Shown in pieces: positions 12,048 through 41,526 of a stretch of 41,526 nt of DNA. The position numbers and the translations under genes are program-made. Origin of the DNA: an uncultured Alphaproteobacteria bacterium (GTDB taxonomy: Bacteria > Pseudomonadota > Alphaproteobacteria > RF32 > CAG-239); assembly GCA_944391435.1 (NCBI GenBank), contig CALXTP010000027.1:1-41526 (forward strand), given 5' to 3'. The notes below the pieces were generated by a model. It worked only from the letters and a program-made list of their open reading frames with translations. It was not told the DNA's origin and ran no database searches. Every line of letters starts with the position of its first letter. Within the stretch, counting starts at the first letter, position 1.

Positions 12048-12075
12048 TTGCATATTTGCCTAATTGGCGCATTAT
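12048..12075 (+). promoter_or_regulatory. Candidate ffs promoter
   Basis: TTGCAT (12048-12053), a 16-base spacer and CATTAT (12070-12075), upstream of the predicted 5' end of the SRP RNA. Both boxes are only partial matches to consensus. Confidence 0.35.
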
Positions 12076-12091
12076 GAAGAAACAGAAAAAT

Positions 12092-12181
12092 ATGGAGGGC
12101 ACAGGGTTGTTTGGCCGCCAACCCGGTCAGGTTCGGAAGAAAGCAGCCGTAACGGTAAAAACAAGGTCTGTCGCCCTTCGC
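12092..12181 (+). ncRNA. ffs: Small SRP RNA (4.5S RNA)
   Basis: About 90 nt recognised from the universal domain IV core GGTCAGGTTCGGAAGAAAGC followed by AGCC at 12125-12148, which has the GGAA tetraloop and the asymmetric internal loop bound by Ffh. The terminal stem closes as GGAGGGC (12094-12100) with GCCCTTC (12173-12179), including one G-U pair. This RNA joins Ffh in the signal recognition particle that targets membrane proteins cotranslationally. It sits immediately before dnaX. Exact ends are approximate. It explains why an open frame running through this stretch is not coding. Confidence 0.95.
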
Positions 12182-12198
12182 CTCATAAGTTAGAAACA

Positions 12199-25789: not shown

Positions 25790-26282
25790 TCTCATCTTCT
25801 TTCTGTTTGACAAGTTTTTCCTGTTCAGCCATAAGCTTGGCCACGACATCATCAATACTTTGCCCGGCTCCTTTGGTAGGATCGTCGGATTGGTCGGTAA
25901 AGCCGCCGAAAGCATCTTTTGCGGCACTCAAATCAGCTTCTTTTTTCGCAGCCATTTCTACCGACGCGTTGCGTTCAAGTTCCTGTCTGTACAGGCTTAA
26001 ATTTTTTTTAAGGGCCTCAATGCCGCCTTTGATTTTCTTCTCCACATAAGGATGAAGTTCTTTATGCTCAATAATGTAATCGCCTGTCTCACATAACTCG
26101 CTCAAAACATCAATAATATACGGATAAAAAGGATAATCCTCAACGGCAATATTACCTTGTCTGATGCAGCGGGCAGCTATTCGCGAAACAGTACGGTCAT
26201 AATAATCACGTATAAGAACGTAATTATCAATATACCATAAAGATTCTTTGGTTACCGTAATATCGTCGCTGTTATCTGCCAT
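25782..26282 (-). CDS. Hypothetical soluble protein of the secretin-like cluster
   Basis: 166 residues from the ATG at 26282; GGAGAG lies just upstream, and a TTG at 26294 is rejected because it overlaps that site. No signal peptide or membrane helix. The N-terminal half is rich in aromatic residues and Ile (WYIDNYVLIRDYYDR), followed by a helical Lys/Glu-rich C-terminal half likely to form a coiled coil. It overlaps the secretin-like gene by 8 bp, so the two are probably translated together. Possibly a cytoplasmic chaperone or adaptor; this is a guess from size and position. Confidence 0.68.
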   Translation of the reverse strand: MADNSDDITVTKESLWYIDNYVLIRDYYDRTVSRIAARCIRQGNIAVEDYPFYPYIIDVLSELCETGDYIIEHKELHPYVEKKIKGGIEALKKNLSLYRQELERNASVEMAAKKEADLSAAKDAFGGFTDQSDDPTKGAGQSIDDVVAKLMAEQEKLVKQKEDENE

Positions 26283-26341
26283 CATTCTCTCCAAAATCTT
26301 ACTCCGAAAAATTAAAGCAAAGAGGCTGTATTGTAAACAAT

Positions 26342-29300
26342 TTAATGCTGGTTATTGTCAGGCTTTTCGTCTGTCGTTCCGTCATCTTCAACATATTCCC
26401 ATTCCCAATCCTCATCGTCAGAGGGGACTTCGTTGCCGTCTTCGTCTACATATTCCCATTCCCAATCTTCATCGGAAGCTTCTCCGGAAGCATCGGCGGA
26501 AGAAGAGGAATTTGTATCGGAAGAAACAGGTGCCGTTGCCCCGGCATTGGTTGAAGGCGGAAACTCGGACGTCGGATTGATATCCGCGTAATCATGCTGC
26601 CCGACATTTTCATCATCGTCATAATCATCTAACTCAATAGGCTGATCCAATGATGAAATATCAATATTATCGGTTGTTAATGCTGCCCGGATTCTGTCCA
26701 GCTCGGCACTGTATCTGCTGGGCTTTTCCTCTGACACAGGTGTTGCCGGAATATCGGCAGGGGCGTCCTGTGTCATTGTGCCTTCGGCCCCATTGTTTGC
26801 TGCTTGTCCTGTTATGTCTACAGAAACATCTCCAATTCCGTCAAGTGCAGGTTCTTCCTCCTGGCGGATATTCTTTTCTGCCGCCGATTCCGCGAGAGCC
26901 GCTGAAGCATCGGCAGACATATTGTCCGCAAACGGTTCATTAACAACAGTTGATATCGGCTCAACATTCGGTGCAGCCGTTTGAGAAAACGGAGTCTCGT
27001 TGTTCTCTTCCGGTACGGTTAAAAATTGTTGCAAGTCATCAAATGTATCCGGTGAATTTTCCCGTATATCCTGTGCTGGCTCAATATCATCAGCCCTCAC
27101 CGGGGATTCGGTCTGATAATCGGAAATTTCTGTCGGCAGAACGTCAGCGGAATCTGCTGTACTCAATTCCGGGCTGTCCGGTATATTTGCAATCGGCTCG
27201 CCTGTATTCCCGCCATTCAAAAAATCATCTAATGACGGCTCGTCTATTTCGTGCTGCTCATCCATATTTTCACTTGCCTTCGGCGACTGCATGGGCGTAT
27301 CATCAAAAATCTCATGACTTTGCTCTTGCATATCTGTCGGAGTACGTTGTACGGCTGAAGTTTCCACGGGAATATCCTGCCCTTGGATATCGTCAAAACT
27401 CAAAGACGGGATTTGGTGGTCATCTTCGCCAGCATCCGGCGCGGATGTTTCGGGCAAGGCGAAATCCAAGTCGTCATCTTCCTGAATATCGTTAAAATCT
27501 TGCAAAACAGGTTCTGTGGTAGGAGAAAGATTCGCGTCCTCTTTTGTGTCATAAATGTGCTGAGGGAGCTCAAAATCCAAATCCTCATCATCGTTTGAAG
27601 CAAAATCTGTAAGATCAGGAGTGTCAGCGTCAGATGTTGCTTTCACAGCATCCTGTATCTCGGGTTGAGAGGGAGCCTCCTCATCTTCAAAATTAAGGGC
27701 GTCCAAAGAATCTAATGATTGCAACAGCTGGCTGTCTTCCTGTTCATCTGTTTCCGGAATATTGGCAAAAGTGTCTGAAACAGGATTATCCGTTGTTGAA
27801 AAGTTTTCGGCAAAAATCTTTTCTTGCTGCGCAACAGCAGAAACGTGCTCTTCTTCCGGCAATGTGTCTAACGGCGGTACATCCAAACGTATATTGTTAA
27901 AATCATCATTATGCTTAAATTCTTGATTGCGGATAACACCATCAAACTGGGGAATCGGAGATTGTGAAACAGTAGCTGCTGTGCCTGTTGCCGTTGCAGG
28001 CGTAACGGCTGGTTCTATCTTCTTTGCAGCGGGAATTTCCATTCCTTCTGCCGGTCTTGATGTCGGTATATTTTCACGCTTTATATCAGACACGGCATTC
28101 GCCGGCTGCTCGGAACCGGTCGGGAAGCCATTGGCTGATGAAACTGCTGTATCTGCATTGCCGTGATGTTTTTTCTTCTTTTTCTTCTTTTTTCTCGGTT
28201 CGCCGGTAAATTGTGCTACTGGTTCAAAATGAAGCATATTGCCTTCCGGGAAGGAAACATCATCTTCACCTTCGGAAACACCGTCATCGTCAGCAAGCCC
28301 CGCTATATGCGAAACGGGAGAATATTCTTCTGCCGAAGGTAATACTTGAGAATACTTATTTGCGGATTCTGTCTGATGTTCTTTTGCATCTTGTTCCGGT
28401 CGGGACGGTTTCGGAGTTGGAGCATTATTGCCGGACAATGTATCCTGCCGTTGGACAGATTCGGAAAAGGTATTTAATAACGGCGATGCATCTATAACAA
28501 TCTTTTTATCATTAACCGTTTGAGCATATTCTTTAAACATATCCTGCATGGCTCGCAATGAAGCATCTAATTCATTCTTTATCTCGTTGCGAAATGTCTG
28601 TAAACGGTTTTCTACATTCAGATAATCTGAGATTTCCGTATTTTTTTTATTATTTGATGTATAAAGCCCTTCCAACAATTTGGTAATAGATGCCTGCGAT
28701 GCAATAATTCTGTTGTTGAGGTCAGATAAATCCGCATCATCGCGATTTCGGGAAGACAAAATGCCTTCCAAAATACGGGCAATGGAAACTTGTGAGGCTA
28801 TAACGGAATCCGTAACGCTGCGCGTTTCTTTTAACACATCAAGCATAGCAGCCCGCGAAGAGCGTATTTCTTCGGCAATGACATCAAAAGCATTTTCTGC
28901 GCCGGAAGAAAGGACAGCTGTCTCGCCGGCAGAAACGGGAACTTGGTTTTGTTTAAAAGCCAATGCCAGCGCTTTGGCCAGAGCTTCGGCGAAAGAAGAA
29001 TCAATCGTCAGGCTGCCCCCGATGACTGCTCCTCCGGCAGCTTGAACCGGAGCCGGCGCATCTATTTTTCCCGCTCCCTCGTCAAAGTCTTCCCTATTGG
29101 CTTTAACAAAAGATATGCCTCGTTCGGTCTTGACTTTTTCAATATGTTCAACCAAAAGACGGCCACCGGGCATTCGCTTAAAAAAATCCGTAATTTCCGG
29201 AGGTAGCGCCAACAATTCGTTATCAAACTCTTCCCTTTTGTTCTTATTAAAAATGTGAACCTGCCTGAAGATATTTAAATAACGTTGTGCAACTAAAATC

Positions 29301-29356
29301 GGCGCTTCTTTGCCGTCATTGTCACTGCCAAACTCTACATCATTTAAATTTTCCAC
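26342..29356 (-). CDS. Large acidic protein with Trp-rich C-terminal repeats
   Basis: 1004 residues, GTG start, no signal peptide or membrane helix. Residues 1-100 look globular. About 105-320 are helical, with a near-duplicate unit (VIASQVSIARILEGI and IIASQASITKLLEGL, about 33 residues apart). A poly-Lys stretch (K8 then HH) is at about 390-400. The remainder is acidic low-complexity sequence of Asp, Glu, Ser, Pro and Thr, ending in two copies of DEDWEWEYV 19 residues apart, close to the C terminus. The family is not recognised. It could be a structural scaffold or a secreted substrate of the neighbouring apparatus; its acidic, C-terminally repeated end leaves both open. Confidence 0.75.
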   Translation of the reverse strand: MENLNDVEFGSDNDGKEAPILVAQRYLNIFRQVHIFNKNKREEFDNELLALPPEITDFFKRMPGGRLLVEHIEKVKTERGISFVKANREDFDEGAGKIDAPAPVQAAGGAVIGGSLTIDSSFAEALAKALALAFKQNQVPVSAGETAVLSSGAENAFDVIAEEIRSSRAAMLDVLKETRSVTDSVIASQVSIARILEGILSSRNRDDADLSDLNNRIIASQASITKLLEGLYTSNNKKNTEISDYLNVENRLQTFRNEIKNELDASLRAMQDMFKEYAQTVNDKKIVIDASPLLNTFSESVQRQDTLSGNNAPTPKPSRPEQDAKEHQTESANKYSQVLPSAEEYSPVSHIAGLADDDGVSEGEDDVSFPEGNMLHFEPVAQFTGEPRKKKKKKKKHHGNADTAVSSANGFPTGSEQPANAVSDIKRENIPTSRPAEGMEIPAAKKIEPAVTPATATGTAATVSQSPIPQFDGVIRNQEFKHNDDFNNIRLDVPPLDTLPEEEHVSAVAQQEKIFAENFSTTDNPVSDTFANIPETDEQEDSQLLQSLDSLDALNFEDEEAPSQPEIQDAVKATSDADTPDLTDFASNDDEDLDFELPQHIYDTKEDANLSPTTEPVLQDFNDIQEDDDLDFALPETSAPDAGEDDHQIPSLSFDDIQGQDIPVETSAVQRTPTDMQEQSHEIFDDTPMQSPKASENMDEQHEIDEPSLDDFLNGGNTGEPIANIPDSPELSTADSADVLPTEISDYQTESPVRADDIEPAQDIRENSPDTFDDLQQFLTVPEENNETPFSQTAAPNVEPISTVVNEPFADNMSADASAALAESAAEKNIRQEEEPALDGIGDVSVDITGQAANNGAEGTMTQDAPADIPATPVSEEKPSRYSAELDRIRAALTTDNIDISSLDQPIELDDYDDDENVGQHDYADINPTSEFPPSTNAGATAPVSSDTNSSSSADASGEASDEDWEWEYVDEDGNEVPSDDEDWEWEYVEDDGTTDEKPDNNQH
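26391..26467 (-). repeat. DWEWEYV tandem repeat
   Basis: Two identical 20-base copies at 26391-26410 and 26448-26467, 57 bases apart (19 codons), encoding DWEWEYV plus flanking acidic residues. Identity at DNA level suggests a recent duplication or gene conversion. Confidence 0.8.
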
Positions 29357-29401: not shown

Positions 29402-30379
29402 TTACAAAGCAATATCCACAACCTTATGAATTTTTTTGAAATCATCGTTGCTGAAATAAATGCGTTCTTCTGGATTCCACATCAAGCCGTAAAGCTGTCC
29501 TGTTTCATCTTCCCTGACGCTGACAACGAAAGCTTTTTGTTCTGTTGTGTAATAAAGGGCAATGTCGCCGACGCTTGCAACTTCGCTCGGTGCAACAAAC
29601 ATAATGGCTCTGTTGGACAAGATGGAGCCGAGTCTTCTTGTGCACAGGCTGACGCCATAAACGTCCCTCTTATCACAAAGATTCGCCGGCTTGACGGCTT
29701 CTTTGGATGAAGAATTCCTGTCAATAACGATAGAGCCGTCTGCGCCCGAAGCGCCGAATACCGGAACTTTTAACGTGTCTAAATCAATATATCCGCTGCC
29801 ATTATGGTCGTTAACGGGTCTGCTGATGGCCGCAATCTTGTATTTCGTGTCATTATGGGCAATAATTTCTTCCAAAGCACCTTTTTCATCAAGGCGCTTG
29901 ATTTCAGCCTTCAAAGCATCAACATCCATGCCCAGGGCATTGGCAATATTTTTGTATTCTTTGTCGGAAACTTCGCGTTGTCCCATTTCTATGCGGTGGT
30001 ATACAGAAAGTGTCATATCCGCATTTTCGGCAACTTCAATCAAAGTCAACGACTTTTCGTTTCTGATATATCGCAGAGCGGCACCCAAAACTTTTAAGCC
30101 GCTGTTGCGGTTAATTTCCTGCCGTCTTTCCTGCTCTTTTTTCCAAGACATGACAACTTCATGCTGTGAATTTTGTTCATTAACATACAAGTCTTGCAAA
30201 GAACAATCCAATATTTCGGCAACCAAGATAAGCTGTTCTTGGTTAAGTCTCCTGTATCCTTTTTCTATTTTGGATATGGCAGAAAGGCTGATGCCTAGTC
30301 TGTCGGCCAGGTCTTGCATAGAAACGCCGCGCATTTTACGGTTAATCCTGATTTGGTTCGGAAATACAATTTCTTCCAT
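29402..30379 (-). CDS. Double-HTH (XRE) regulator with S24-like C-terminal domain
   Basis: 325 residues from the ATG at 30379, with GAGG upstream. Two XRE-type helix-turn-helix domains are seen, at about 8-64 (SMQDLADRLGISLSAISKIE) and 98-156 (TLIEVAENADMTLSVYHRIE). From about 200 the sequence resembles the LexA/S24 fold: VPVFGASGADGS, DVYGVSLC, VGDIALYY, GLMWNPEERIYF and a closing HKVVDIAL. The Ser of the usual GDSM motif is replaced by a CTRR segment, so self-cleavage is unlikely. It lies between the VirB6-like array and the acidic-protein cluster and may control either. Confidence 0.85.
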   Translation of the reverse strand: MEEIVFPNQIRINRKMRGVSMQDLADRLGISLSAISKIEKGYRRLNQEQLILVAEILDCSLQDLYVNEQNSQHEVVMSWKKEQERRQEINRNSGLKVLGAALRYIRNEKSLTLIEVAENADMTLSVYHRIEMGQREVSDKEYKNIANALGMDVDALKAEIKRLDEKGALEEIIAHNDTKYKIAAISRPVNDHNGSGYIDLDTLKVPVFGASGADGSIVIDRNSSSKEAVKPANLCDKRDVYGVSLCTRRLGSILSNRAIMFVAPSEVASVGDIALYYTTEQKAFVVSVREDETGQLYGLMWNPEERIYFSNDDFKKIHKVVDIAL

Positions 30380-30416
30380 AGCTATATACCTCATACAAAA
30401 ATAATTTTACATTATA

Positions 30417-30617: not shown

Positions 30618-33600
30618 TTATAAAATTTTTCCAATAAGGCGTCCGCTGCTGTCATAGGCCATGCCATTGCTGATACGGCCGATAGAAGTGCCGTTGCTGT
30701 TAAGTATATTTCCGCTGGCATCGGCTTGGCCGATAATATTTCCGTTAAAATCGGCAACATCCAAAGTGTCAACTGTATGGCTGGTGGACGTATGAAGTCG
30801 GTTGGCGCCTTTGTGCCGCATTTTAACCAATACGTCGTCTTTAATGTAGTCTTTCATATTTTTTCCGTTGACCTTTTCTCTGGTTTGGGCATCAAAACCT
30901 TGGAACAAATCGCCTTTGTAGCCGTCTTCTCCTGCGTGTGCCGGATCCAAATCGCGGGCAACGGTACCGTTTTTCTCTATAATTTGGTTGCCGTCAATCC
31001 TGTCTGAAATATGATCATGCCCTCGCTGTGCATATTCGGAAAAGCTTGCCGTTGTTTTTTCTCCGGCTGTTTTTGCCGAACCGTCGCGGATATCGCCCTC
31101 TGTTTTTCTTCCTGTTTCGTTAATGTTAAGCAGCCCGTTGCTTCTGTATCGCATATAAGTGCCGCTATATTTTTCATTGCTTTCCGCATAGCTGTTTCCA
31201 TAAGAAGTGGAAGATGATCCGTCAATATTTTTCTGGCGTGTCCGTGTAGCATCTATATGTTTTGTTTTTGTTTTAAGTACATTGCCTTTTTTATCAAGAT
31301 ATTCCGTAATCACTTCATTGTTTTTATATATAGTACGTTCGGTCTTCTGTCTGAAAAGTCCTGCTTTTCTCTCCGTCTGATAAGTTATTTCGCCGGTTGC
31401 GGCATCCGTATGGCTGGACAATTTTTGCGAACCCCAAAAACTGTGTAGAGTCGTCTTCCTGTCGCCCGTGGCAGATGTAGGGGCAAAAGCAGCATCCAGC
31501 TTATCTTGCATATCCTGTCGTTTCTGGTTGTAACCGCTCAGTTTGGCGCTGGTATCGTGCTGAATTTCCACCCCGTTACGGCTATAAGTCTTTTTAACTG
31601 TCGGTCCGAAAAATCCGAAACGTTTTGTTTCTCTTTCATAGTACTGCTGCCCGTTGGCATCCTTTTTGGCGGTATAAGAAACAAAAGCCCCGGCTTTCCA
31701 GGTGTAAGAGCCGTCTCCGTTATCATGCCCGGCACGTCTTATCATGCTGTTTAAGGCTGCAATGTTAAGCTTGCGCCCAAGGCGTTTTCTGCCGGTTGTT
31801 GCTGCCGTTTCAATGCTGTTTTTATCTCTTTGGACAAGGTAATCCGTAAAAACTTGTCCGGTTGCTGAATCTATATCTAAACTAAGGGTGGTCAGTTTTC
31901 CTGTATTATCCATCTGTTCCATTCGTAGCGAAAAAGGATGGCTGGGGTCAAATTCCACATTGCGAGATGAAAAATAAGCGCCGACATCTTGTCCCGTCCT
32001 GGCCTTGTTAATTTCTATAGCCAACTGTGTCATAATGTCTTTAAGGTTTTCCGGGTCTTTGGCCAGGTCGGAATTCATAAGAGTTTCAAGTGCCCCTTTG
32101 TTGATAAAGCCGTTTTTATCCATCAAATGGTCTTTAACAAAACCGTGTTTGAATTTAACCTGCGTTCGTATTGTTTTTCCCGAAGCTGTTTTTTCCCTTT
32201 TTATGGTGGCATATTTATCGGCCAGCATGGTATGGGTGCGCCCCGTAATAGATTTAAAATCGCGATGCAAAACATCTGTCCCGTCCGCGTTCCTGTCCAA
32301 TGAAAAAGTATAGCCGAGCATTCGCAGAGTCTTTCCGCCTGTGCTGTTGGTTTTGCCAAAGAGTTTGACCCCGGCTTTGGCGGTTTGACGAACACCAGCC
32401 TGCATACGCCGTTTGGTAACACGTCCGGCTCTTTTCGCCGCCGTCCCGGCTGCACCGACGGCCCAATCTGCCGCTTTCCTCGTTTTGGAATCAACGGTCT
32501 GTTTGACAGCAGCCCCGATTTTTTGTGCCGCGCTAATTCCCAATGACCCTTTGGAAAAATTGTCGGCCAAATCAACAATAACCGGCATATATGCCCAGCC
32601 GATAACCAGAATAAAAATAATTTTGAGCATATTGGGTCCGTAAAAGGCCAATCCTTTATTCGGGTTTTCAAAAAATACTTTCGGGTCGCTCGTATTTTCC
32701 ATTGCCCCTAATAGTAAGTTATTGATATACCCAAGGATACACATAATCAGGATAGCCATAAACATAAAGACGAATAAGGAATGTAAAATCCAAGAGAAAA
32801 CTTTGGATAAATAGCTGCGCGTTCCTTGAAAAGCGTATCCGCAGACGGCAAAGGGCAGAAAAGCCATGGCTATGCCGAGTTGCAATACGGCATCGGCCAT
32901 AACCCAAGGGTAGGCAACCATAAAAAACACGCCAGCCAGGTAAAGCAGTATGCCGTCAATGATGTAAATTGGATTCGGAATAACGTAAAAAAGGCGGTCA
33001 GGCCCGTTGCCGCGGCATAATCCCCAGCGACCAAACTCAAACAAAAGATTGATTTTTCGTTCAATATCCTCAACGGCGCAAACAATAGACGTCCCGACGC
33101 TCATGGGGAGTCCGCCGTTGGTACCCGAACCGGCACTGCCGCTGTAACCGATAATGCCGTCGGCGTTGGCACAGGTCGTATTACCGCTTTTTACAAAAGA
33201 CAACCCCGTATCAAAAATAGGAGAAAGCGTCAGGTTCAAGATATTGTAATAATCTTTGGCGACAATAATATAAATGGCAATACCGACAAACGTTTTGGTA
33301 AAAATGTCATTAAGCAGTGCGTTGGGATCTTTAGAGCCCATGGTTGCAATATTGCGCAATATAATAAGCGCCAGAGACACGGCCAAAAAGATAATAATGA
33401 GCTGGCCGAGTTCGGAAGAAAAAGCCTCATAAGATTTTGCAGCCACATAGCTTCCCGCATTAAAAAGAACCTTAAACATTTGGCAAAACATACAATCAAC
33501 CTTGTCTACAGTCGGTGTAACGCAGTTGGTTTCGGTATCTATGCCGAGCGTTTTTGCCAACAGAGCCCCGGCCTTGTCTTCTATGTCGGCGTATGATGGT

Positions 33601-33674
33601 TTTGTTATCAATAAAACAAACAGCAAAACCAGTGCCGACAGTTTATTAGATATATATGCCCGAATCATATTCAT
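30618..33674 (-). CDS. VirB6-like protein with 550-residue C-terminal extension
   Basis: 1018 residues from the ATG at 33674 (AAGGTG upstream; a GTG at 33683 is also possible). Signal peptide, then the periplasmic VDCMFCQMF motif. A TrbL/VirB6-type polytopic core follows to about residue 390, with LGQLIIIFLAVSLALIILRN and the long central loop. After a basic Ala/Lys/Arg-rich linker comes a ~550-residue hydrophilic extension containing many short beta-like units (YSRNGVEI, LDKKGNVLKTKTK). It ends with NGMAYDSSGRLIGKIL, preceded by GNIIGQADASGNIL. Extended VirB6 proteins are typical of the rickettsial rvh system. It is the last of the array. Confidence 0.85.
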   Translation of the reverse strand: MNMIRAYISNKLSALVLLFVLLITKPSYADIEDKAGALLAKTLGIDTETNCVTPTVDKVDCMFCQMFKVLFNAGSYVAAKSYEAFSSELGQLIIIFLAVSLALIILRNIATMGSKDPNALLNDIFTKTFVGIAIYIIVAKDYYNILNLTLSPIFDTGLSFVKSGNTTCANADGIIGYSGSAGSGTNGGLPMSVGTSIVCAVEDIERKINLLFEFGRWGLCRGNGPDRLFYVIPNPIYIIDGILLYLAGVFFMVAYPWVMADAVLQLGIAMAFLPFAVCGYAFQGTRSYLSKVFSWILHSLFVFMFMAILIMCILGYINNLLLGAMENTSDPKVFFENPNKGLAFYGPNMLKIIFILVIGWAYMPVIVDLADNFSKGSLGISAAQKIGAAVKQTVDSKTRKAADWAVGAAGTAAKRAGRVTKRRMQAGVRQTAKAGVKLFGKTNSTGGKTLRMLGYTFSLDRNADGTDVLHRDFKSITGRTHTMLADKYATIKREKTASGKTIRTQVKFKHGFVKDHLMDKNGFINKGALETLMNSDLAKDPENLKDIMTQLAIEINKARTGQDVGAYFSSRNVEFDPSHPFSLRMEQMDNTGKLTTLSLDIDSATGQVFTDYLVQRDKNSIETAATTGRKRLGRKLNIAALNSMIRRAGHDNGDGSYTWKAGAFVSYTAKKDANGQQYYERETKRFGFFGPTVKKTYSRNGVEIQHDTSAKLSGYNQKRQDMQDKLDAAFAPTSATGDRKTTLHSFWGSQKLSSHTDAATGEITYQTERKAGLFRQKTERTIYKNNEVITEYLDKKGNVLKTKTKHIDATRTRQKNIDGSSSTSYGNSYAESNEKYSGTYMRYRSNGLLNINETGRKTEGDIRDGSAKTAGEKTTASFSEYAQRGHDHISDRIDGNQIIEKNGTVARDLDPAHAGEDGYKGDLFQGFDAQTREKVNGKNMKDYIKDDVLVKMRHKGANRLHTSTSHTVDTLDVADFNGNIIGQADASGNILNSNGTSIGRISNGMAYDSSGRLIGKIL

Positions 33675-33685
33675 AACCGTCACCT

Positions 33686-34612
33686 TTACTTCTTTGTTTT
33701 AGCCATTTGTTTACCGTAACGTGCCAAGGTCCGTCCAAAGAAAGAATTACTTTTTTCGCCGCGAGCCTGGAGTCGTTTACCCGTTTGATGTTTAATCACA
33801 TCGTTGCCGTATTTGCCTACTTTGCCAATAGTTCTTTTGTTAACAGCAGCAACAATCTGACTTATCCTGTCGCTTAAAGGCTGGCCGGCCATCGATCCGT
33901 CAAAGAAATGTTTGCAAAATTCATCTGCCATCAGCGGAATCATACGCATCGCTACCAGATAAGAAACCAAAACTTTGAGGAATGTCAGTGTAAAAACACC
34001 AAGTTTGTCACGAATGATGTCAGATTTGTCTTCGTCAAAAATAGCCTTAATATCGGTATCTTGGCCAAAGGATGCGTTAATAATGGTATCAACGATTTCT
34101 GCTCCGATAAGGATTCCCAGCGGCAAAAAGATAAACAAGCCGGTATAATAAGCGATTCCCTCAACAACGGGCTGGAGTTTGTCTCTTGTCCAGGCAAAGG
34201 GCCACAATGCCAGCGCCAAAGGCAGCAAGACAATGCATAATGACAGGTTAAACGCCACATCAAACATATAAAAAGAGGCGATAACGGAAATAAAGAACCC
34301 CAATACGTATAAAATACAGCCGCTGATAAAAATATCAAATGCGATAAGTTTAATTTCTATAATAACTTTAATACGGAAAGCAGCTTCTCCGTAAATGGAG
34401 TTGCATATAAGCATATCGCCGATTTTCATCATCTGATTGGTAGCTTTGTTAATTTGGTCGGCCATTTTTTTCACGCCGTTTATCAGATTATTCATTGCAG
34501 TAATTTCCTGTCCCGCAATGGATATTTCGGGAGAAGCCCCCTGCGCCATTACCCCCGGTGCGGTGAACAGCAGAGCAAGGAAAAGAAAAATATATCGCAG
34601 AAACTTCTTCAT
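33686..34612 (-). CDS. VirB6-like C-terminal half (split unit, part 2)
   Basis: 308 residues with its own signal peptide (MKKFLRYIFLFLALLFTAPG) and an AAGGAGGA ribosome site. The mature sequence begins in what corresponds to the periplasmic loop of the intact paralogues and then has GDMLICNSIYGEAAF, parallel to GEAMICNSIRGTFN in the 36446-38116 paralogue. Membrane helices and a basic C-terminal tail (KRLQARGEKSNSFFGRTLAR) follow. It lacks the N-terminal helices and CxxC motif, which are supplied by the gene 12 bp upstream. Together the two make one full VirB6-like unit of about 475 residues. Confidence 0.82.
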   Translation of the reverse strand: MKKFLRYIFLFLALLFTAPGVMAQGASPEISIAGQEITAMNNLINGVKKMADQINKATNQMMKIGDMLICNSIYGEAAFRIKVIIEIKLIAFDIFISGCILYVLGFFISVIASFYMFDVAFNLSLCIVLLPLALALWPFAWTRDKLQPVVEGIAYYTGLFIFLPLGILIGAEIVDTIINASFGQDTDIKAIFDEDKSDIIRDKLGVFTLTFLKVLVSYLVAMRMIPLMADEFCKHFFDGSMAGQPLSDRISQIVAAVNKRTIGKVGKYGNDVIKHQTGKRLQARGEKSNSFFGRTLARYGKQMAKTKK

Positions 34613-34624
34613 GCTTTTTCCTCC

Positions 34625-35128
34625 TTAAAAGCTGACCGCCCCGGCAAGTGTTTCGCCGATATCAAAACCGATGCTGAGCATGGGATTGACGATATATTGA
34701 ACCAAAACATCTATGCCGGCGGTAACAAGGGCATAAACTAACGCCACTTTAAAACAAAACGTAAGCAGCCCGTCAATAATTTTGGCCGGATCCTGCGTTG
34801 CAAAAGAGCCGAGCGATTTTAAGAAATATAGTGCTATCCAAATGGCGGAGCCGAGCGTTAAAATAAGTTTGGCAGCTTCCACGGTTGTGCCATACAGGGT
34901 GCCGGCAATCGTTGTAAGTGATATCATAAGATTTTCAATAATTTCGCAAGACCAACAACCTGCTTTTTCATATTCTTCATCAATAATTTCGGATGAACAG
35001 TATGTGAGGTAATCATCATCGCAAAACGCCGTTTCAGCAAGCAGCAAAGCGCAGCAGAAAACACTGGCCGTTACCACAAATTTGTGCTGGCAAATAAACT
35101 GCAGGAATATGTTAATAATCATCGTCAT
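34625..35128 (-). CDS. VirB6-like N-terminal half (split unit, part 1)
   Basis: 167 residues. Signal peptide ending around ETAFC, then the conserved periplasmic Cys motif in AGCWSCEIIENL. The first membrane segments of the family follow (LTLGSAIWIALYFLKSLGSF with ATQDPA, then FKVALVYALVTAG). It stops after MLSIGFDIGETLAGAVSF, exactly where the paralogues enter the large periplasmic loop. No frameshift remnant joins it to the next gene, which has its own signal peptide. The ATG overlaps the preceding stop by 4 bp. A two-component VirB6 is the simplest reading. Confidence 0.8.
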   Translation of the reverse strand: MTMIINIFLQFICQHKFVVTASVFCCALLLAETAFCDDDYLTYCSSEIIDEEYEKAGCWSCEIIENLMISLTTIAGTLYGTTVEAAKLILTLGSAIWIALYFLKSLGSFATQDPAKIIDGLLTFCFKVALVYALVTAGIDVLVQYIVNPMLSIGFDIGETLAGAVSF

Positions 35129-36429
35129 TCGTTATACCCCGCTAATGAATTGATTGCCGAAGATGTTTTGCTTTTTGCCTGTTTGATGGAGTCCAATGCT
35201 TCCCGGGATTTTTCATATTTTTCCATAGTGGTTGTAATGGTGGAAGTCGCTCCGCCTGAAACGCCGGCCAAAATAGCCGCACCGGCACGTTTTGCCGTGT
35301 TCATGACAAATTGTGTAACCTGTTTTTGAAATTCCAGGCCTCGTCCGCCGCCGATAAACTTGTCCGCCATAACAACCCCAAGTCCCGGAATATTGATAAG
35401 CAGGAAAGAAATCAGCAGTAATGACAGCATAACCGGTCCCGGATTGGACAGATTCTTGTTTTCATAGGCACCGCTTCCTTCAAAATTGCCCAAAGTTGTT
35501 TCCAAAGCGCCGATGGCAATACAAATAAGTATTCCTATAAACAACATAATACCCGATGAATTCAAGAACATCAGAAAACCGTGTTTGCTCCATTTTCGCG
35601 TATAATTAAAAGGAACCCCCATAATCAGCAACGGAAACAATAAGGCAGCAAAATTCATCCTGAACAGGGCATCAACCAAAAAGAATATAAAGCCAAATTT
35701 GGCACACGTAAATATCAGAAGCATGGTTAAGCCGACAAGGATAGAATCAAGTTCAAGCAGGGCAATAAGCTCAATGCCGAGTCGGATGCCGGCATTGAGC
35801 CTGTCATTAATCTGGCAGGCAAGGCAGCTTGCCATCGGTTGGATGGAACTTTGCAAAGAATCCGCATTAAGTTCTTGTACTTCACAGCTTGTATATGAGG
35901 TATTAAAAGTAACCGTTCCGAAAATGCCAAGATTAACCGATCCGCCGGATTTTATATTGCCGAGGATGGCGGAGCCCAATTCCAAAATGGCGTTATAAAT
36001 CGGGATAACAAACGTATTAAGCGTCCAGGATATCATTCCTCCGTCGCTGACGGCCCAGGCACAAAAAGCACATAAGAATAATTTATGCCCGATTTCGGTC
36101 CAGACTTCGCCCAGATTTTCTTCTTTAAACGACGGGAGCACTTTCAGAAGTTTAAAAGCCATCCAGATAGAAAACCCGAGCATGATGATAACGGCGCCGC
36201 CATCGGCAACTTTGGCTGACCCTGCTTTGAATAAATTGTCAATCTGCCCCAACACAATGTCAATGATTTTAGCTTGCCAGCAAGCCGCCTGTTCTTCATA
36301 ATTGGTATCTTTGCCGGAAGACAGGTCATCATCATCTTTGCATGCGGCAAGAAGCATGATAATGGCAATGCCGAACAAGCGTTTCAGCATCTTCACGGTA
36401 AATATTTTATATATCAGCTCCCGTATCAT
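35125..36429 (-). CDS. VirB6-like predicted lipoprotein
   Basis: 434 residues. The N-terminal signal has a lipobox, LAAC, with Cys30 followed by KDDDD, so it may be lipidated. The core follows the VirB6-like pattern: IIMLGFSIWMAFKLLKVLPSF near the N terminus, a large loop, and several later helices such as LDSILVGLTMLLIFTCAKFGF. The second Cys of the family CxxC is replaced (ACWQA), and a CLAC pair appears in the loop (MASCLACQINDR). GAGG precedes the ATG. It lies in the middle of the array, coupled to the split unit by a 4-bp overlap. Confidence 0.82.
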   Translation of the reverse strand: MIRELIYKIFTVKMLKRLFGIAIIMLLAACKDDDDLSSGKDTNYEEQAACWQAKIIDIVLGQIDNLFKAGSAKVADGGAVIIMLGFSIWMAFKLLKVLPSFKEENLGEVWTEIGHKLFLCAFCAWAVSDGGMISWTLNTFVIPIYNAILELGSAILGNIKSGGSVNLGIFGTVTFNTSYTSCEVQELNADSLQSSIQPMASCLACQINDRLNAGIRLGIELIALLELDSILVGLTMLLIFTCAKFGFIFFLVDALFRMNFAALLFPLLIMGVPFNYTRKWSKHGFLMFLNSSGIMLFIGILICIAIGALETTLGNFEGSGAYENKNLSNPGPVMLSLLLISFLLINIPGLGVVMADKFIGGGRGLEFQKQVTQFVMNTAKRAGAAILAGVSGGATSTITTTMEKYEKSREALDSIKQAKSKTSSAINSLAGYNE

Positions 36430-36445
36430 CGTCCCGTCCTCTTAG

Positions 36446-38116
36446 TTAAATCGGCTTGCCGTCTGCGTCATACTGTTGTTCATCACTGCTGCCATCAGTA
36501 TGAGTAACTTTTTCAGAAGCAACCTGACCATTTCCATGAAAAGTTTGCTCATCGCTACTACCATCGGTATGAGTAATTTTTTTGGTCTCAAGATTACCGT
36601 TTTCATCAAAAGATTGGTCTTCAATATCGCCGTTTTGCCGAACCGTCTGGACATTTCTTAATCTGTGGTTTGCATCAAAATTCCGCGTGATAGTGCTGCC
36701 GTCATCGCCCTGTACGACATCCTGCAGCGGTCCGGCGGCAAGCGGAGTCTGTGCTTTATGCCAAAAAGCCCTGTATCCCTGTCTTCCGGTACCCGTCAGG
36801 GTTCCGCGGATTTCCTCAACTTTGTTGCCGCCCCAGGCATAGGCTTTGTCCAGGCGAGTCATTCTGGCTGCGGCTGCACCCGTGCGCTTGCTGGCCGTAA
36901 GCCCCCAGTTTCCGGTAGCTTTGGCAATGCGTTTTCCAGCACCGGAAACAGGCTTCATAACCGCAGCGCCCACCTGGCTGCCGGCAGAAGTTGGAGTGCC
37001 GCTGTCGGCAATCTTATCGGCCAGTTTGCCGATATGGGCGGCCAGTTGCACAATGACGCAGAAGCAGACGATGGTAAACAGCAAAGAGCCGTTGCTCCAC
37101 AATTCCTTGGCAATTTCTTTAACCTGATTATCATCAATATTTGCGCTAAGATTAGTCAAAAAGCTGTTTAGGGCAGGGCTTTGCGAACCGCTTTCATATG
37201 AGCCCATACATAAATCAACCAGCTGCATGGAAAGCCCCATCACGATTCCCAGCATAACAAAGCTGGCAAATACATTCAAGAAGATACTCCAGATGTTTTT
37301 GGAATAGGTAGAAGTCAAACCGGAAATTGCGGCAGCCACGCCAAAAGGCAGGAGAATTGCCCCGAATGTCAGGCGAATAAGAATATCCACAATATAAAAA
37401 GATATACCGACCAAAAGCACCCACCCGAAAACAAACAGGATAAAACCATAAAACAACATCAGCCAATACCATTTAAAGATATTAAAGGTACCACGTATGG
37501 AATTGCATATCATGGCCTCGCCAATGGCAATTGTCCGGTACAATTGGTCATTAAACTGTTTAACCGCTTCGTTAACCATCTCAAAAATAGCAGCATATCC
37601 GGTACCGCTGGGCGTAGCCAGCCGTGCCCCCTCAACGGATAAGGTTGAGCCGATATTAAGCCCCGCTTGCAAAATCGGGCTGATGATTTTATTGATAAAA
37701 AAGGAGCTGCTTTCATTTTCCTGTAACAAAAGCACGATAACCGTTGTTTTGAACATCAAAATTAAAATGCCCTTTTTATCTCCGGTTAAAAAGTCGGCAG
37801 CATTTTGTTTGCCGAAAGAGCCGACATTTTTAAGCACGGCCATGGCAATATAAATGGCGGAAGCCAAAACGACTAACGGGATAAGGTCAAGGTGGAAAGT
37901 ATCCCATGATTTTGTTGCCGCGCTGGTTGCTGCTTCCGTGATAATCTTAAACAGGCGGCATAACAGGCAGTTGTTATGTGTGCTGAGACCGTCATTAAGA
38001 TAATCCTGAATAGTCGGACATTCTTTGCAGGCCGTCAAAAACAAGGTAAAGAATACGGCAAGCAGCATTTTCCGCTTTTCAAACATTTCCTTTAATGTCA
38101 TTCCCACCCTATACAT
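36446..38116 (-). CDS. VirB6-like predicted lipoprotein with YD-like C-terminal repeats
   Basis: 556 residues, start at 38116 with GGAG seven bases upstream. Lipobox LTAC with Cys30, then NNCLLCRLFKII, the array's CxxC motif. VirB6-type helices include LVVLASAIYIAMAVLKNVGSF and the GEAMICNSIRG segment. After the last helix and a basic linker, the C-terminal ~100 residues are four degenerate repeats of about 23 residues with the pattern DGS...F/Y-D-x-NG, like YD/RHS repeats. This domain is hydrophilic and has no parallel in the 455-residue paralogue upstream. Position: second in the array. Confidence 0.84.
   Translation of the reverse strand: MYRVGMTLKEMFEKRKMLLAVFFTLFLTACKECPTIQDYLNDGLSTHNNCLLCRLFKIITEAATSAATKSWDTFHLDLIPLVVLASAIYIAMAVLKNVGSFGKQNAADFLTGDKKGILILMFKTTVIVLLLQENESSSFFINKIISPILQAGLNIGSTLSVEGARLATPSGTGYAAIFEMVNEAVKQFNDQLYRTIAIGEAMICNSIRGTFNIFKWYWLMLFYGFILFVFGWVLLVGISFYIVDILIRLTFGAILLPFGVAAAISGLTSTYSKNIWSIFLNVFASFVMLGIVMGLSMQLVDLCMGSYESGSQSPALNSFLTNLSANIDDNQVKEIAKELWSNGSLLFTIVCFCVIVQLAAHIGKLADKIADSGTPTSAGSQVGAAVMKPVSGAGKRIAKATGNWGLTASKRTGAAAARMTRLDKAYAWGGNKVEEIRGTLTGTGRQGYRAFWHKAQTPLAAGPLQDVVQGDDGSTITRNFDANHRLRNVQTVRQNGDIEDQSFDENGNLETKKITHTDGSSDEQTFHGNGQVASEKVTHTDGSSDEQQYDADGKPI
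36476..36574 (-). repeat. THTDGSSDEQ repeats in VirB6-like C terminus
   Basis: Two copies encoding THTDGSSDEQ at 36476-36505 and 36545-36574, 69 bases apart. They differ at five codons out of ten and every difference is synonymous, so the peptide is conserved while the DNA has drifted. More degenerate copies lie upstream in the same gene. Confidence 0.8.
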
Positions 38117-38137
38117 GGCACTGCTCCGTAAGTCCTG

Positions 38138-39496
38138 TTAAATACGCAAAGCCCGGCGGAGTTTGCTGACGGTTTTACCGACCCTGCTGTTTTGTATAGC
38201 CTGTCCCACAGGGCTTTGGCGGATATTTTGCCAGGTTTGTCTCCGGCTGTCTCTGAAGTCTTCTTTAGCGGTTTGAATAGCCGCCCCTGCAAATTTTTTG
38301 TTTTCTCTCAAGCCTTTTTTAATCGGCGCCGACGCAAACTGATGCGCCAGAGCACCGCTTTGTTTACCCAGCTTGCCGATGGAAGATGTGCTGGAAACCT
38401 TATCCGCAAGTTGTTCAAGTTCCATAAACAGTTTGAATGCAACCATGCATGCAATTGTTGTCAACAGGAAAGAAGAGACATCCAGATTTTCCACCAAAGC
38501 TGAAGCGTCAGCCTCTGTAAATTGTTTGCCTGCTTGAATGTTGTGTTCGGCGATGAGTTCATCAGAACCGCCCGCCGCTTCCATAATCATTTCCATGGTA
38601 AAGGTAAGCAGAACGCCCATCATGACAAAATTGAAAAAGACGTTGACAAACAGATTCCAGTTTTTCTTAGTATATTTTGAAGTCAATTTGGAAACGCCGC
38701 AAGCGATGGCCATTGGCAACAACATGCATCCCACTGCGAGGCGAAACAAAACGTCCAGCAAATAAAAGGAAACACCGATAAGGATAAACCAGCCGAATAC
38801 ATATAAAACGGCGCCAAAGAAAATGAGTGACCAATACCAGTCAAAAATATCCTCCGGAAGAAAAGCCAGGCACAAGAACAGCCGACCGAGCGCAACAATC
38901 TGATAAACATTATCATTAAATTCGCGCACCTTGTCAATCACGGCCTGAAATAAGGTTCGCACGTTGCTGACATCGCCAAATCCGCTTACGCCAAGCGTCC
39001 CGCCGGCCGATGAAATTGTTCCGCCTACGCTGAGTCCCGCACTGATAACCGGTCCGATAATATAAGAATACAAAAAACTCTGATTGCCCAGCAGCCAGAT
39101 AACCATGGCAACCTTGACGCATAGCGGAATAATGCCGGTCTTTTCGTTGGATAGATAAGCCGCCGGATCCTGTTGGGAAAAGGATGCAATATTTTTTAGC
39201 GTGTAAACGGCAATATAAATTGCGGCGCCGATGGCAACAACACCTTGCAAAGGTGTGGCAAAAGCGTTCCAGGAAAGGACAACGACATTGGCGCAGGCAT
39301 CCATTACCACATCATAAATGCCGCATAGCAGGCAGTGGTCAGAGGTTTGCCCGCCGCCGGCACCTCCGGTGCCTTCTTGTATAAACTCGGTCAGTGTCGG
39401 ACACATAGGGTCATCGGCCCGCGAAACGGAAGCCGTGCAGACAAAATAAAAAAATGAGCCGATTAAATATTTAAGAGACGTTAGAATCTTTGTCAT
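38138..39496 (-). CDS. VirB6-like inner-membrane protein
   Basis: 452 residues from the ATG at 39496, with GAGGTG upstream (a GTG at 39505 is less likely). Signal peptide ending near SVSRA, then DHCLLCGIYDVV with the periplasmic CxxC. Core helices include VVAIGAAIYIAVYTLKNIASF with SQQDPA, then DIFDWYWSLIFFGAVLYVFG and LLDVLFRLAVGCMLLPMAIA. The C terminus is a basic Lys/Arg-rich tail. This is the shortest intact member and a good reference for the array. VirB6/TrbL proteins form the inner-membrane channel of type IV secretion systems. First VirB6-like gene in the array; it overlaps the preceding small gene by 26 bp. Confidence 0.86.
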   Translation of the reverse strand: MTKILTSLKYLIGSFFYFVCTASVSRADDPMCPTLTEFIQEGTGGAGGGQTSDHCLLCGIYDVVMDACANVVVLSWNAFATPLQGVVAIGAAIYIAVYTLKNIASFSQQDPAAYLSNEKTGIIPLCVKVAMVIWLLGNQSFLYSYIIGPVISAGLSVGGTISSAGGTLGVSGFGDVSNVRTLFQAVIDKVREFNDNVYQIVALGRLFLCLAFLPEDIFDWYWSLIFFGAVLYVFGWFILIGVSFYLLDVLFRLAVGCMLLPMAIACGVSKLTSKYTKKNWNLFVNVFFNFVMMGVLLTFTMEMIMEAAGGSDELIAEHNIQAGKQFTEADASALVENLDVSSFLLTTIACMVAFKLFMELEQLADKVSSTSSIGKLGKQSGALAHQFASAPIKKGLRENKKFAGAAIQTAKEDFRDSRRQTWQNIRQSPVGQAIQNSRVGKTVSKLRRALRI

Positions 39497-39692
39497 TGTC
39501 GTCACCTCGTCTCTTAATCAGCGGTTTGGAAAAAGGAGTTCCGAGAAAGGCTGCTGCTGCCAATAGCATAAAAACACATAGTCCTAAGGCAATATAAAGC
39601 AGGGTTTTGTGCGCAAAAAAGCCGATAACATCGCTGTAAGCAATGAAATAAAGCCCAATAAATACCACAATCATACCCGCAACAGACTTCAT
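39471..39692 (-). CDS. Small two-helix membrane protein
   Basis: 73 residues with two predicted membrane helices (MIVVFIGLYFIAYSDVIGFF and LLYIALGLCVFMLLAAAAFL) and a short charged tail rich in Asp, Asn and Lys. GAGG precedes the ATG. It begins the VirB6-like array and overlaps the next gene. The size and two-helix form recall VirB3, which often lies upstream of VirB4 and VirB6, but no VirB3 sequence motif is evident, so this is only a suggestion. Confidence 0.7.
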   Translation of the reverse strand: MKSVAGMIVVFIGLYFIAYSDVIGFFAHKTLLYIALGLCVFMLLAAAAFLGTPFSKPLIKRRGDDNDKDSNVS

Positions 39693-39763: not shown

Positions 39764-40603
39764 TTAAATTTTTCCGTTATTGATAAACTTAACGGCGTAA
39801 TTAAGTACTTTTTCATTATGAAGAGTCTGAAAAGTCGTACCTTCCACAGAAATTTCCCCTTTTTTTCTTTGTGATTGCTGCGGAACCGGAAATTTGCACC
39901 ATTTGAGCAGATTCGCGGCTATTTGAGACGCTTTGGATACGGAAAAAATCTTCAGCGTGTTGAAGTGCCTTGGAATGCTCGGAGTCTTTTTCATGCTCTT
40001 TTCGGTCATTTCCTCCAGCATCGGCCCGCCCAATAAGCTAAAAAGCTTAAATCTTGCCAATATGTCACATAAAAGGCTGCCCCGAACGGCAGGGTTAATC
40101 TCAACAATATTGCGGATTCGCATTTTTTCTTGAAAAGTCTGCATATCTGGCGGCAGATTTAACAGTTGTCGCAAAACCAGATTCCCGGCGCCTTTTGTAA
40201 CAAATGAAACATCAGTGATATCTTCCATGTGATTAAGAAAAAACAACAGCTGGTAAGCTGAAGCCAGTGAGCTCCGGAATAAGGAAGGATAATTGATGGC
40301 TGCCACGGTTGAGTGTGTCAGTACAAGCTTGCGCCAGAGTCGTTTAAAAATATTTTTGCTGTCGCCATAACCATGCAACAAAACAACCAGACTACCTTGC
40401 TGTTTTGTTATTTCGTAACAGTCTATATAGCGTATAAATGCTTTCTGGCATTCTTCAAAAGTTCCGCTTGCGCGGCGTATATCCCAGGAATCAAGGAGTC
40501 GATAGGTCTTTTTGCCGCAATGCCTCTGGATTCGCCATTTTTGATAAAAAAAGACATCTTCCCAAAAAAACGAACCGCCGAATGTAAAAAAATCAAATTT
40601 CAT
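39764..40603 (-). CDS. Alpha/beta-hydrolase-fold protein lacking the nucleophile Ser
   Basis: 279 residues, no signal peptide. The alpha/beta-hydrolase opening SLVVLLHGYGDSKNIFKRLW gives the HG oxyanion loop. The nucleophile elbow, normally G-x-S-x-G, reads TKGAG at residues 136-140, so the catalytic Ser is Gly138 (codon GGC at 40192-40190). The elbow is otherwise intact in context: DVSFV before, NLVLRQLL after. It is probably a non-catalytic relative or uses another chemistry. AAGAGAG precedes the ATG. It lies 8 bp after the small lipoprotein gene and upstream of the VirB6-like array. Confidence 0.72.
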   Translation of the reverse strand: MKFDFFTFGGSFFWEDVFFYQKWRIQRHCGKKTYRLLDSWDIRRASGTFEECQKAFIRYIDCYEITKQQGSLVVLLHGYGDSKNIFKRLWRKLVLTHSTVAAINYPSLFRSSLASAYQLLFFLNHMEDITDVSFVTKGAGNLVLRQLLNLPPDMQTFQEKMRIRNIVEINPAVRGSLLCDILARFKLFSLLGGPMLEEMTEKSMKKTPSIPRHFNTLKIFSVSKASQIAANLLKWCKFPVPQQSQRKKGEISVEGTTFQTLHNEKVLNYAVKFINNGKI

Positions 40604-40611
40604 GGTCTCTC

Positions 40612-41046
40612 TTAATTGCTAAGTGCTTTGACGCTTGCCTGATTTGGTATGGCTGTGATGGTAACAAACGCGGAGTCGTCTCCTTCCATCTGGATTAAGA
40701 TTTGGGCGGCTCGTCCGTTTTTAACATATGTCATATGGCTGATTCCTGCACGCACAACGGCAATTTCAACCCAGCCTTTTTTAGGCATTTCAGATACATA
40801 ATAGTCAAAAACTCGTCCGGCGTTAAAATTAACCGTAAAGCAAATGCTTCCAATCCAGTTCTCTCCGCTGCCCATAGTCTTGGTGTCTTCCAAAACCAAA
40901 AAAGCTTCATCTGGAAACGGAATATCGGGAAAGTTCTGAAATACCATCGGAATTTCCCTCCCGTCAGATCCGAGCATGGGCGTGGGTTCTTTGGCGCAGC
41001 CGCCGGCCAATAGCAAAAACAAGGCTAATAGATATATTTTCTTCAT
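40612..41046 (-). CDS. Hypothetical lipoprotein
   Basis: 144 residues. The lipoprotein signal peptide ends in LAGGC. The mature part has PDIPFPDEAFLVLEDTKTMG, SICFTVNFNAGRVFDYYVSE and GWVEIAVVRAG, a compact beta-rich domain of unknown function. The sequence before and after the Asp/Pro-rich motif suggests a single domain of about 115 residues. AAGGAG is about ten bases before the ATG. It is the first gene of the minus-strand block and probably co-transcribed with the hydrolase-like gene. Confidence 0.75.
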   Translation of the reverse strand: MKKIYLLALFLLLAGGCAKEPTPMLGSDGREIPMVFQNFPDIPFPDEAFLVLEDTKTMGSGENWIGSICFTVNFNAGRVFDYYVSEMPKKGWVEIAVVRAGISHMTYVKNGRAAQILIQMEGDDSAFVTITAIPNQASVKALSN

Positions 41047-41278
41047 TGTTATAAACTCCTTTTTTGAAAATATAGCAAAACAGAGGTTAACAAAAAGAAA
41101 ACAAAAGACACATACAACAGCGCTTATTATATATATAAGCCGTATTGTACAGGTGCCGGATAAATGATATAAGATTTATTGGCAATAAAATTTAACTGTA
41201 TTCTTAGGTAAAAACAGCAATTTAGCTGATATATGAATAAAAAAAGAGGAAAAAAGGAAAAATTTTTAAAAAAAGGTG
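41047..41278. other. Noncoding divergent spacer
   Basis: A 232-bp AT-rich region between the lipoprotein ATG (minus) and the strong promoter at 41279 (plus). No plausible gene. It holds the inverted repeat at 41122-41140 and purine-rich runs just before the promoter. Confidence 0.7.
41122..41140. promoter_or_regulatory. Inverted repeat overlapping a -10-like box
   Basis: GCTTAT (41122-41127) and ATAAGC (41135-41140) flank TATATAT. Read on the minus strand, a TATAAT lies within it, about 75 bases before the lipoprotein gene. Operator or promoter role is inferred. Confidence 0.35.
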
Positions 41279-41307
41279 TTGACAATCGGAAAAGAGTATC
41301 ATATAAA
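41279..41307 (+). promoter_or_regulatory. Consensus sigma-70 promoter reading off the window
   Basis: TTGACA (41279-41284), a 17-base spacer, and TATAAA (41302-41307): full -35 and nearly full -10 consensus, typical of stable-RNA promoters. Transcription should begin near 41314. Confidence 0.82.
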
Positions 41308-41313
41308 CCCACT

Positions 41314-41526
41314 CACCGGCAGGGACGAGGCAAGCAAGAAAGCTTGAGAAGTTGTTGCGGTCAAGAGAGTACCTGAAGCGAGAGCTGAGGGGTAAGCTGA
41401 GAAGCTGTTATAAGAGATAGTAGATAAGAAGAGAGGATATGTAGGCAGTATATGTAATAAATGTCTACATATCAAAGGAACCTAGAGCAAACTTTGAGAA
41501 TAGACAGGATGAGAACTCATAAATAA
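41314..41526 (+). other. Structured noncoding leader, partial
   Basis: No open frame of note. Hairpins: CAAGC/GCTTG near 41331-41346, a perfect 9-bp stem GATATGTAG (41436-41444) / CTACATATC (41465-41473), and ATGAG/CTCAT at 41509-41520. A promoter this strong feeding structured RNA suggests an rRNA operon leader or another stable RNA, but no 16S start is reached before the window ends. Confidence 0.5.

Follow-up and report, generated by a model that had tools for sequence, protein, structure and literature searches.

A tandem array of five VirB6-like units in an uncultured alphaproteobacterium, very probably part of a scattered type IV secretion system

Conjugation systems have one VirB6 gene whereas the Rickettsiales have four or five, and the reason for this is an open question. 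It is raised anew by a contig of an uncultured alphaproteobacterium of the CAG-239 lineage (CALXTP010000027.1, assembly GCA_944391435.1), which encodes a tandem array of five VirB6-like units. The 41,526 nucleotides analysed here (the window) are this whole contig, one of 88 in a 1.53-Mb genome of 92% completeness, and Pfam and other family searches of the window's proteins revealed no other vir gene in it. To which machine do these units belong, and where does their number come from? Very probably, they are the inner-membrane and stalk VirB6 subunits of a single chromosomal P-type type IV secretion system (T4SS) whose other genes are located at other loci, because further components are encoded in the same genome and are found adjacent to the array in sister genera.

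Five units in six reading frames

The array consists of six minus-strand open reading frames running from 39505 to 30618 with intergenic gaps of -4 to 21 bp, and its 5' end can be set at a GTG start at 39505 rather than at 39496. Unit 1 (E1, 38138-39505, 455 residues) is followed by unit 2 (E2, 36446-38116, 556 residues; phmmer E-value of 5e-71 to E1) and unit 3 (E3, 35125-36429, 434 residues; 1.7e-10 to E5), both of which are predicted lipoproteins, having the lipobox motifs LTAC (near the N-terminus of E2) and LAAC, respectively. Unit 4 is divided. Its first part, E4a (34625-35128), contains a signal or transmembrane segment, a CWSC motif and the first two membrane helices, and matches residues 58-167 of E1 (6e-15), while the second part, E4b (33686-34612), matches residues 179-373 of E1 (1.5e-9). 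Unit 5 (E5, 30618-33683, 1021 residues; 8e-20 to E1) has a long C-terminal extension ending in a beta-flower-like repeat (30624-30791; PF21785, E = 4e-4, below the cut-off), which is of the same type as the repeats in the VirB10 of this genome (4e-51 to the VirB10 on contig C40 and 8e-87 to the VirB10 part on contig C17).

Nearly all pairs of units match each other in both blastp and phmmer, and the array is therefore not a chance series of hydrophobic reading frames. E1 and E2 are the closest pair (about 1e-71 to 1e-73), the other pairs are mostly between 1e-5 and 1e-21, and the weakest is E3-E4b with 0.004 in blastp. In alignments with the other units, E4a covers just their N-terminal half and E4b just their C-terminal half; the six reading frames therefore represent five units, as had been proposed from the window alone. 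Unit 4 is a single reading frame at two loci (L069 and L067) and two reading frames in most of the genus, and alignment with the fused orthologues places the split site in the periplasmic loop. E4b begins with its own signal peptide, and its N-terminus would therefore again be periplasmic, as the topology demands. The sequence features that the original prediction had assigned to all units are shared only in part. The N-terminal CxxC motif is present in E1, E2, E4a, and E5, but E3 retains only the first cysteine (CWQA); the first helix of the type AIxIAxxxLKxxxSF is clear in E1, E2, and E4a and recognisable in E3, but degenerate in E5 (AVSLALIILRNIATM).

With respect to the family, the Pfam profile for TrbL/VirB6 (PF04610) gives marginal scores. 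In hmmscan E5 and E1 reach 25.5 and 25.3 bits against a cut-off of 25.9, and in the search of the whole genome 27.8 and 26.8 bits. Among the long relatives, 14 of 47 match the profile at 1e-3 or better. Despite these scores the membership in VirB6 is sound, because the AlphaFold model of unit 1 (mean pLDDT 75.6, pTM 0.67) best matches VirB6/TrwI of plasmid R388, with a VIA Z-score of 14.1 and an rmsd of 5.1 over 269 of 272 residues. The three top VIA matches are all R388 TrwI/VirB6 chains, and the next unrelated chain has a Z-score of 9.3. In addition, the comparison with a profile of rvh-type VirB6 proteins, taken as the genes directly behind VirB3-VirB4 in other alphaproteobacteria, yields a probability of 96.8% (E = 3e-10, 198 columns). 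Neither approach pointed to an unrelated membrane family or to a match confined to low-complexity helices. The large periplasmic loop, flanked by several membrane helices, is apparent both in the hydropathy profile and in the helices of the E1 model. The tryptophan following the hydrophobic core (W283) is present in at least 90% of 26 E1/E2-type sequences, and E3 and E4b lack it at the corresponding site of the alignment. Searched by sequence, the E1-type profile matched no PDB chain, although the fold comparison did, and NCBIfam contributed nothing useful for the VirB6 units. Pfam matches to Herpes_LMP1, RHS_repeat, and Lipoprotein_1 were rejected because they amount to weak similarity to helices or repeats.

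Other components of the machine

The components of the T4SS were located by family searches of the genome and then by reading the loci that were found. VirB4 and VirD4, for which a genome-wide search had been proposed, are encoded on contigs C9 and C20, respectively, VirB9 on C17, and VirB10 on C40. There are also three VirB2-like pilins (one below the Pfam cut-off), VirB11, a VirB3-like reading frame of 96 residues that overlaps VirB4, two VirB8 genes, and, in this 92% complete genome, one VirB9 match. Thus, the P-type set of VirB4, VirB6, VirB8, VirB9, VirB10, VirB11, and VirD4 is present within one genome, and the suggestion that the array belongs to a scattered type IV system is borne out. 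C17 and C40 each terminate within VirB10 beta-flower repeats and are therefore probably neighbours, forming one VirB8-VirB11 cluster that was broken in these repeats. The runs of PF21785 repeats in VirB10 are very long (L012:4599-11934 and L061:7017-10502). Next to the genes for the three VirB2, VirB3, and VirB4, C9 carries a divergent cluster resembling a type IVb pilus system (L009:8109-19667 and L010:1-2480), with a TcpQ domain, a secretin, and PilO, to which reading of the locus adds an ATPase and an inner-membrane protein. A cluster of the same kind adjoins a VirB6 gene at another locus (L055).

The relatives show how these loci may once have been connected. Of 100 genomes from the order, which we take to be RF32 in GTDB, 90 have matches to E1. 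Named genomes scanned with the regulator that adjoins the array yielded uncultured Alphaproteobacteria, mostly from animal guts, and Azospirillum sp. CAG:239. In about 12 of 80 loci, all from sister genera, the array is followed by a helix-turn-helix (HTH) gene, in some cases a long protein, a 170-residue protein, a secretin-like lipoprotein, and a transmembrane protein, and then by convergent VirB11-VirB10 genes. One contig of a sister genus (G037) holds an array of four VirB6 genes at 1.5-11 kb, VirB11-VirB10-VirB9-VirB8-VirB8 at 17-30 kb, and VirB4 at 37-40 kb, and the spacing is similar in three further genomes (G041, G030, and G079). Within the genus of the window, G020 has VirB4 on the same contig as the array, about 63 kb away. 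In other families of Alphaproteobacteria, four arrays (L147, L148, L156, and L163) lie divergently to a VirD4 locus and another (L161) follows VirB10-VirB11-hydrolase. Because sister genera keep VirB components near the array and G020 keeps VirB4 on its contig, the gene orders argue that the arrangement in the window is the broken-up form of a compact island. A second, diverged VirD4-like protein (29-32% identity) is encoded in addition to the main VirD4 in sister genera (G030, G041, G037, G079, G019, G022, and G075), whereas three genomes examined from the genus of the window showed none.

That VirB4, VirB8-11, and VirD4 are missing within 18 kb of the array, as had been noted, is true of the window but can be judged on one side only. 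The contig terminates about 2 kb upstream of E1, in a region similar by blastn to the 16S-proximal region of a relative (L043), and a 16S gene is found at the corresponding place in L043, L050, and L178. Missing vir genes upstream are therefore a limit of the assembly, and their lack as a whole is an artefact of the short contig together with lineage-specific rearrangement. The leader region of this divergent rRNA operon extends from 41247 to 41526 on the plus strand at the contig end, and in several genera the array adjoins an rRNA operon. Between it and the array, both on the minus strand, are a syntenic 144-residue lipoprotein (40612-41046), conserved upstream of the hydrolase, and an alpha/beta-hydrolase-like gene (39764-40603; DUF7379, 1e-3), the type of gene that links VirB11 to VirB6 in L161.

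On the downstream side, likewise on the minus strand, the array is followed by a two-domain HTH regulator (29402-30394; HTH_3 in two stretches, 9.6e-26), which has a mean column identity of 75% over ten genomes and adjoins the array in nearly all relatives. In NCBIfam it shows weak similarity to RstR and Wmk, with 56 and 50 bits, both below the cut-offs. Then come a disordered or coiled protein of 1004 residues with a conserved N-terminus (26342-29356), syntenic in most relatives, and a conserved 170-residue protein (25782-26294), syntenic with the array, neither of which has a family match. The next gene encodes the secretin-like lipoprotein (24503-25927, the real start probably being near 25798), whose presence near the array had been predicted correctly. 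In 17 relatives it has a mean column identity of 57% and an invariant lipobox cysteine. Its model matches 36 chains at an E-value of 1e-3 or better, including type IVb pilus and other secretins, with BfpB (4e-11) at the top and PilQ at 3e-10, but with TM-scores of only about 0.11-0.27; there is no Pfam secretin match, and the sequence profile matches no PDB chain. A 312-residue protein with a single transmembrane segment (23552-24490) follows, after which sister genera have the convergent VirB11-VirB10 genes and the window has ordinary chromosomal genes. Farther away, a small bacterial signal recognition particle (SRP) RNA (12091-12185, Rfam, 57.9 bits) lies inside the reading frame called as dnaX (12064-13923), and the true dnaX start is therefore probably further downstream than the called TTG.

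The strict synteny of the secretin-like lipoprotein and four neighbours with the array, in a window devoid of other vir genes, could also mean that these VirB6 proteins act together with the lipoprotein and its neighbours and without any type IV machinery, which corresponds to the earlier suggestion of a VirB6-based machine with other partners. This is hardly credible given that a full VirB set is encoded in the same genome and that VirB11-VirB10 are found beside the same neighbours in sister genera, where close relatives keep VirB8-VirB11 and VirB4 next to the array. The assignment to a scattered T4SS has weak points of its own. The Pfam scores of E2, E3, E4a, and E4b are below the cut-off or absent, E1 is the only unit whose model contributes to the fold evidence, VirB5 is tentative, its candidates being secreted proteins encoded next to VirB4 on C9 that have no Pfam match, and C17 and C40 have been placed side by side without being joined by sequence. 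The system is thus known here from genes and one predicted structure.

Origin of the five units

All 11 complete arrays in the genus of the window consist of five units, ordered E1-E2-E3-E4-E5. Of the arrays from other genera that include unit 1, the four that are clearly complete (L088, L116, L118, and L123) have four units and no E1/E2 pair, as does L136 if its two-part unit is taken as one. E1 and E2 form sister clades inside the genus (support 0.991), and E3 belongs to a deep clade common to other alphaproteobacterial families (0.97 at the base). These support values are from FastTree, and the IQ-TREE topology repeats the grouping of the window's units. According to the trees, E2 is the additional, fifth unit, a genus-specific duplicate of unit 1, and E3 has the broadest conservation of all units as an orthologue. 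Because E1 and E2 are sisters within the genus and other genera have four units, the number of five was not inherited from an ancestor with rvhB6a-e.

This bears on whether the array descends from the Rickettsiales rvh system, with its units corresponding to rvhB6a-e and the gene order changed later. Both systems comprise four or five VirB6 genes in tandem that have diverged from each other, and both have long extensions, units with a lipobox, and split variants (virB6d is split in one R. bellii strain, PMC2653234), and their VirB6 profiles are homologous. However, the array profile does not match rvh-type VirB6 at an E-value of 0.01 but matches many other alphaproteobacterial arrays. The rvh arrays lie behind VirB3-VirB4, whereas the array in the window is flanked by the hydrolase and rRNA operon on one side and by the HTH gene on the other. 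In addition, VirB4 is a single-copy gene in this genome as well as in ten relatives, and in the VirB4 tree, in which rvh representatives were chosen by gene order only, it falls outside the clade formed by the VirB4 proteins of VirB3-VirB4-VirB6 arrays. Its best plasmid relatives are found in conjugation systems from Microvirga, Sphingosinicella, and Erythrobacter, with low support (42-65) in this part of the tree so that the exact sister is not fixed. Taken together with the duplication of the fifth unit inside the genus, this makes descent from rvh very improbable. The likeness to the Rickettsiales in the original prediction holds as an analogy but not as a relationship by descent, and the array appears to be an independent parallel from a different branch of T4SSs.

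VirB6 units in rvh order behind VirB3-VirB4 were seen in three genomes (G311, G400, and G208; loci L164, L166, and L168), and two of the three units of L164 start with a lipobox (ILAGC and MITGC). At another locus (L170, genome G217), VirB2-VirB3-VirB4 lie close to an HTH gene and to one lone VirB6 of the array type, which matches the array profile at 2e-39. This locus possibly represents the state before the expansion. Its VirB4 is the closest to that of the window's genome among those compared.

Possible function and comparison with known systems

Most simply, the paralogs, which differ in their loops and tails, would co-assemble at the stalk base, and this base would sit on an otherwise normal platform of VirB3, VirB4, and VirB8 below the VirB9-VirB10 core complex. 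Both a mixed ring and alternative rings are conceivable. The VirB6 of R388 is a pentamer at the stalk base (PMC9259494), and the VirB6 homologue DotA of Dot/Icm is likewise part of a pentameric assembly (PMC12857230). It is tempting to assume that the five units simply mirror the pentamer, but the four units in sister genera weaken this idea, and a mixed pentamer would need one paralog to be used twice there. We regard it as a tentative and rather doubtful proposal that the diverged paralogs (five in this genus) hold distinct positions in one mixed VirB6 pentamer in which unit 4 doubles as the cell-wall-opening subunit. If it were true, an expansion of VirB6 leading to a heteromeric base of the stalk would have evolved at least twice, once in rvh and once in the present system. 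Unit 4 would cover the periplasmic loop, the place that calls for remodelling of the cell wall. In sister genera an M23 peptidase domain is inserted in the unit 4 loop before the TrbL part (L094, L115, L118, L126, and L135), and in L129 the separate C-terminal half has a cell-wall hydrolase domain, Hydrolase_2, at its start. Because relatives carry these domains in the loop, unit 4 appears to be the site where cell-wall opening is built into VirB6. In the literature we found no relevant paper on a VirB6 heteropentamer or on VirB6 with peptidase M23.

The least certain part is the substrate. Export of proteins to neighbouring cells is favoured by the conservation of the system throughout the order and by the failure to find a VirD2-type relaxase (PF03432) in the 92% complete genome, in a search that did not extend to other relaxase families such as MobA/MobL. 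A scattered T4SS that moves DNA instead, by conjugation or DNA uptake, would be the less probable but quite conceivable case. VirB4, VirB9, VirB11, and VirD4 are, among those tested, closest to plasmid conjugation systems with MobA/MobL relaxases, and the type IVb pilus-like cluster adjoins VirB2-VirB4; yet, apart from the relaxase result, the presence in 90 of 100 genomes and beside the rRNA operon in several genera is unlike a mobile element. Whatever its substrate, the scattered T4SS is widespread in an order of animal-gut Alphaproteobacteria, and no description of a T4SS in RF32 or CAG-239 was found in the literature. A second, apparently independent VirB6 expansion outside the Rickettsiales allows the two to be compared, and the traits common to both (four to five units, lipobox units, long extensions, and split variants) are likely functional.

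Compared to known systems, the rvh system of the Rickettsiales (PMC2653234) is similar in having four to five divergent tandem VirB6 genes with extensions, components in scattered islets, and a duplicated VirB8. It differs in that the array described here is not behind VirB3-VirB4, VirB4 is single and of another clade, VirB9 has a single match, and VirB10 is a giant with beta-flower repeats. The tandem VirB6 paralogs of Ehrlichia and Anaplasma (PMC7648143) also have large extensions, and according to Bao 2009, as cited in PMC12857230, they are expressed and interact with VirB9; these species are, however, obligate intracellular Rickettsiales with an rvh-type system. The closest plasmid VirB4 proteins (34-36% identity) are those of the P-type T4SSs of Erythrobacter aureus, Microvirga sp. 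VF16 (pMVF16-3), and Sphingosinicella sp. BN140058, and VirB8, VirB9, VirB11, and VirD4 also match these plasmid systems better than the other comparison set. Unlike the system of the window's genome, they are encoded in one contiguous operon with a relaxase, and the gene at their VirB6 position is matched neither by the Pfam VirB6 model nor by the array profile. The Trw T4SS of R388 with its TrwI/VirB6 stalk pentamer (PMC9259494; PDB 8rt9 and 7o3v) shares the fold of unit 1, but builds a homopentamer from one VirB6 gene where the genome described here has five diverged genes.

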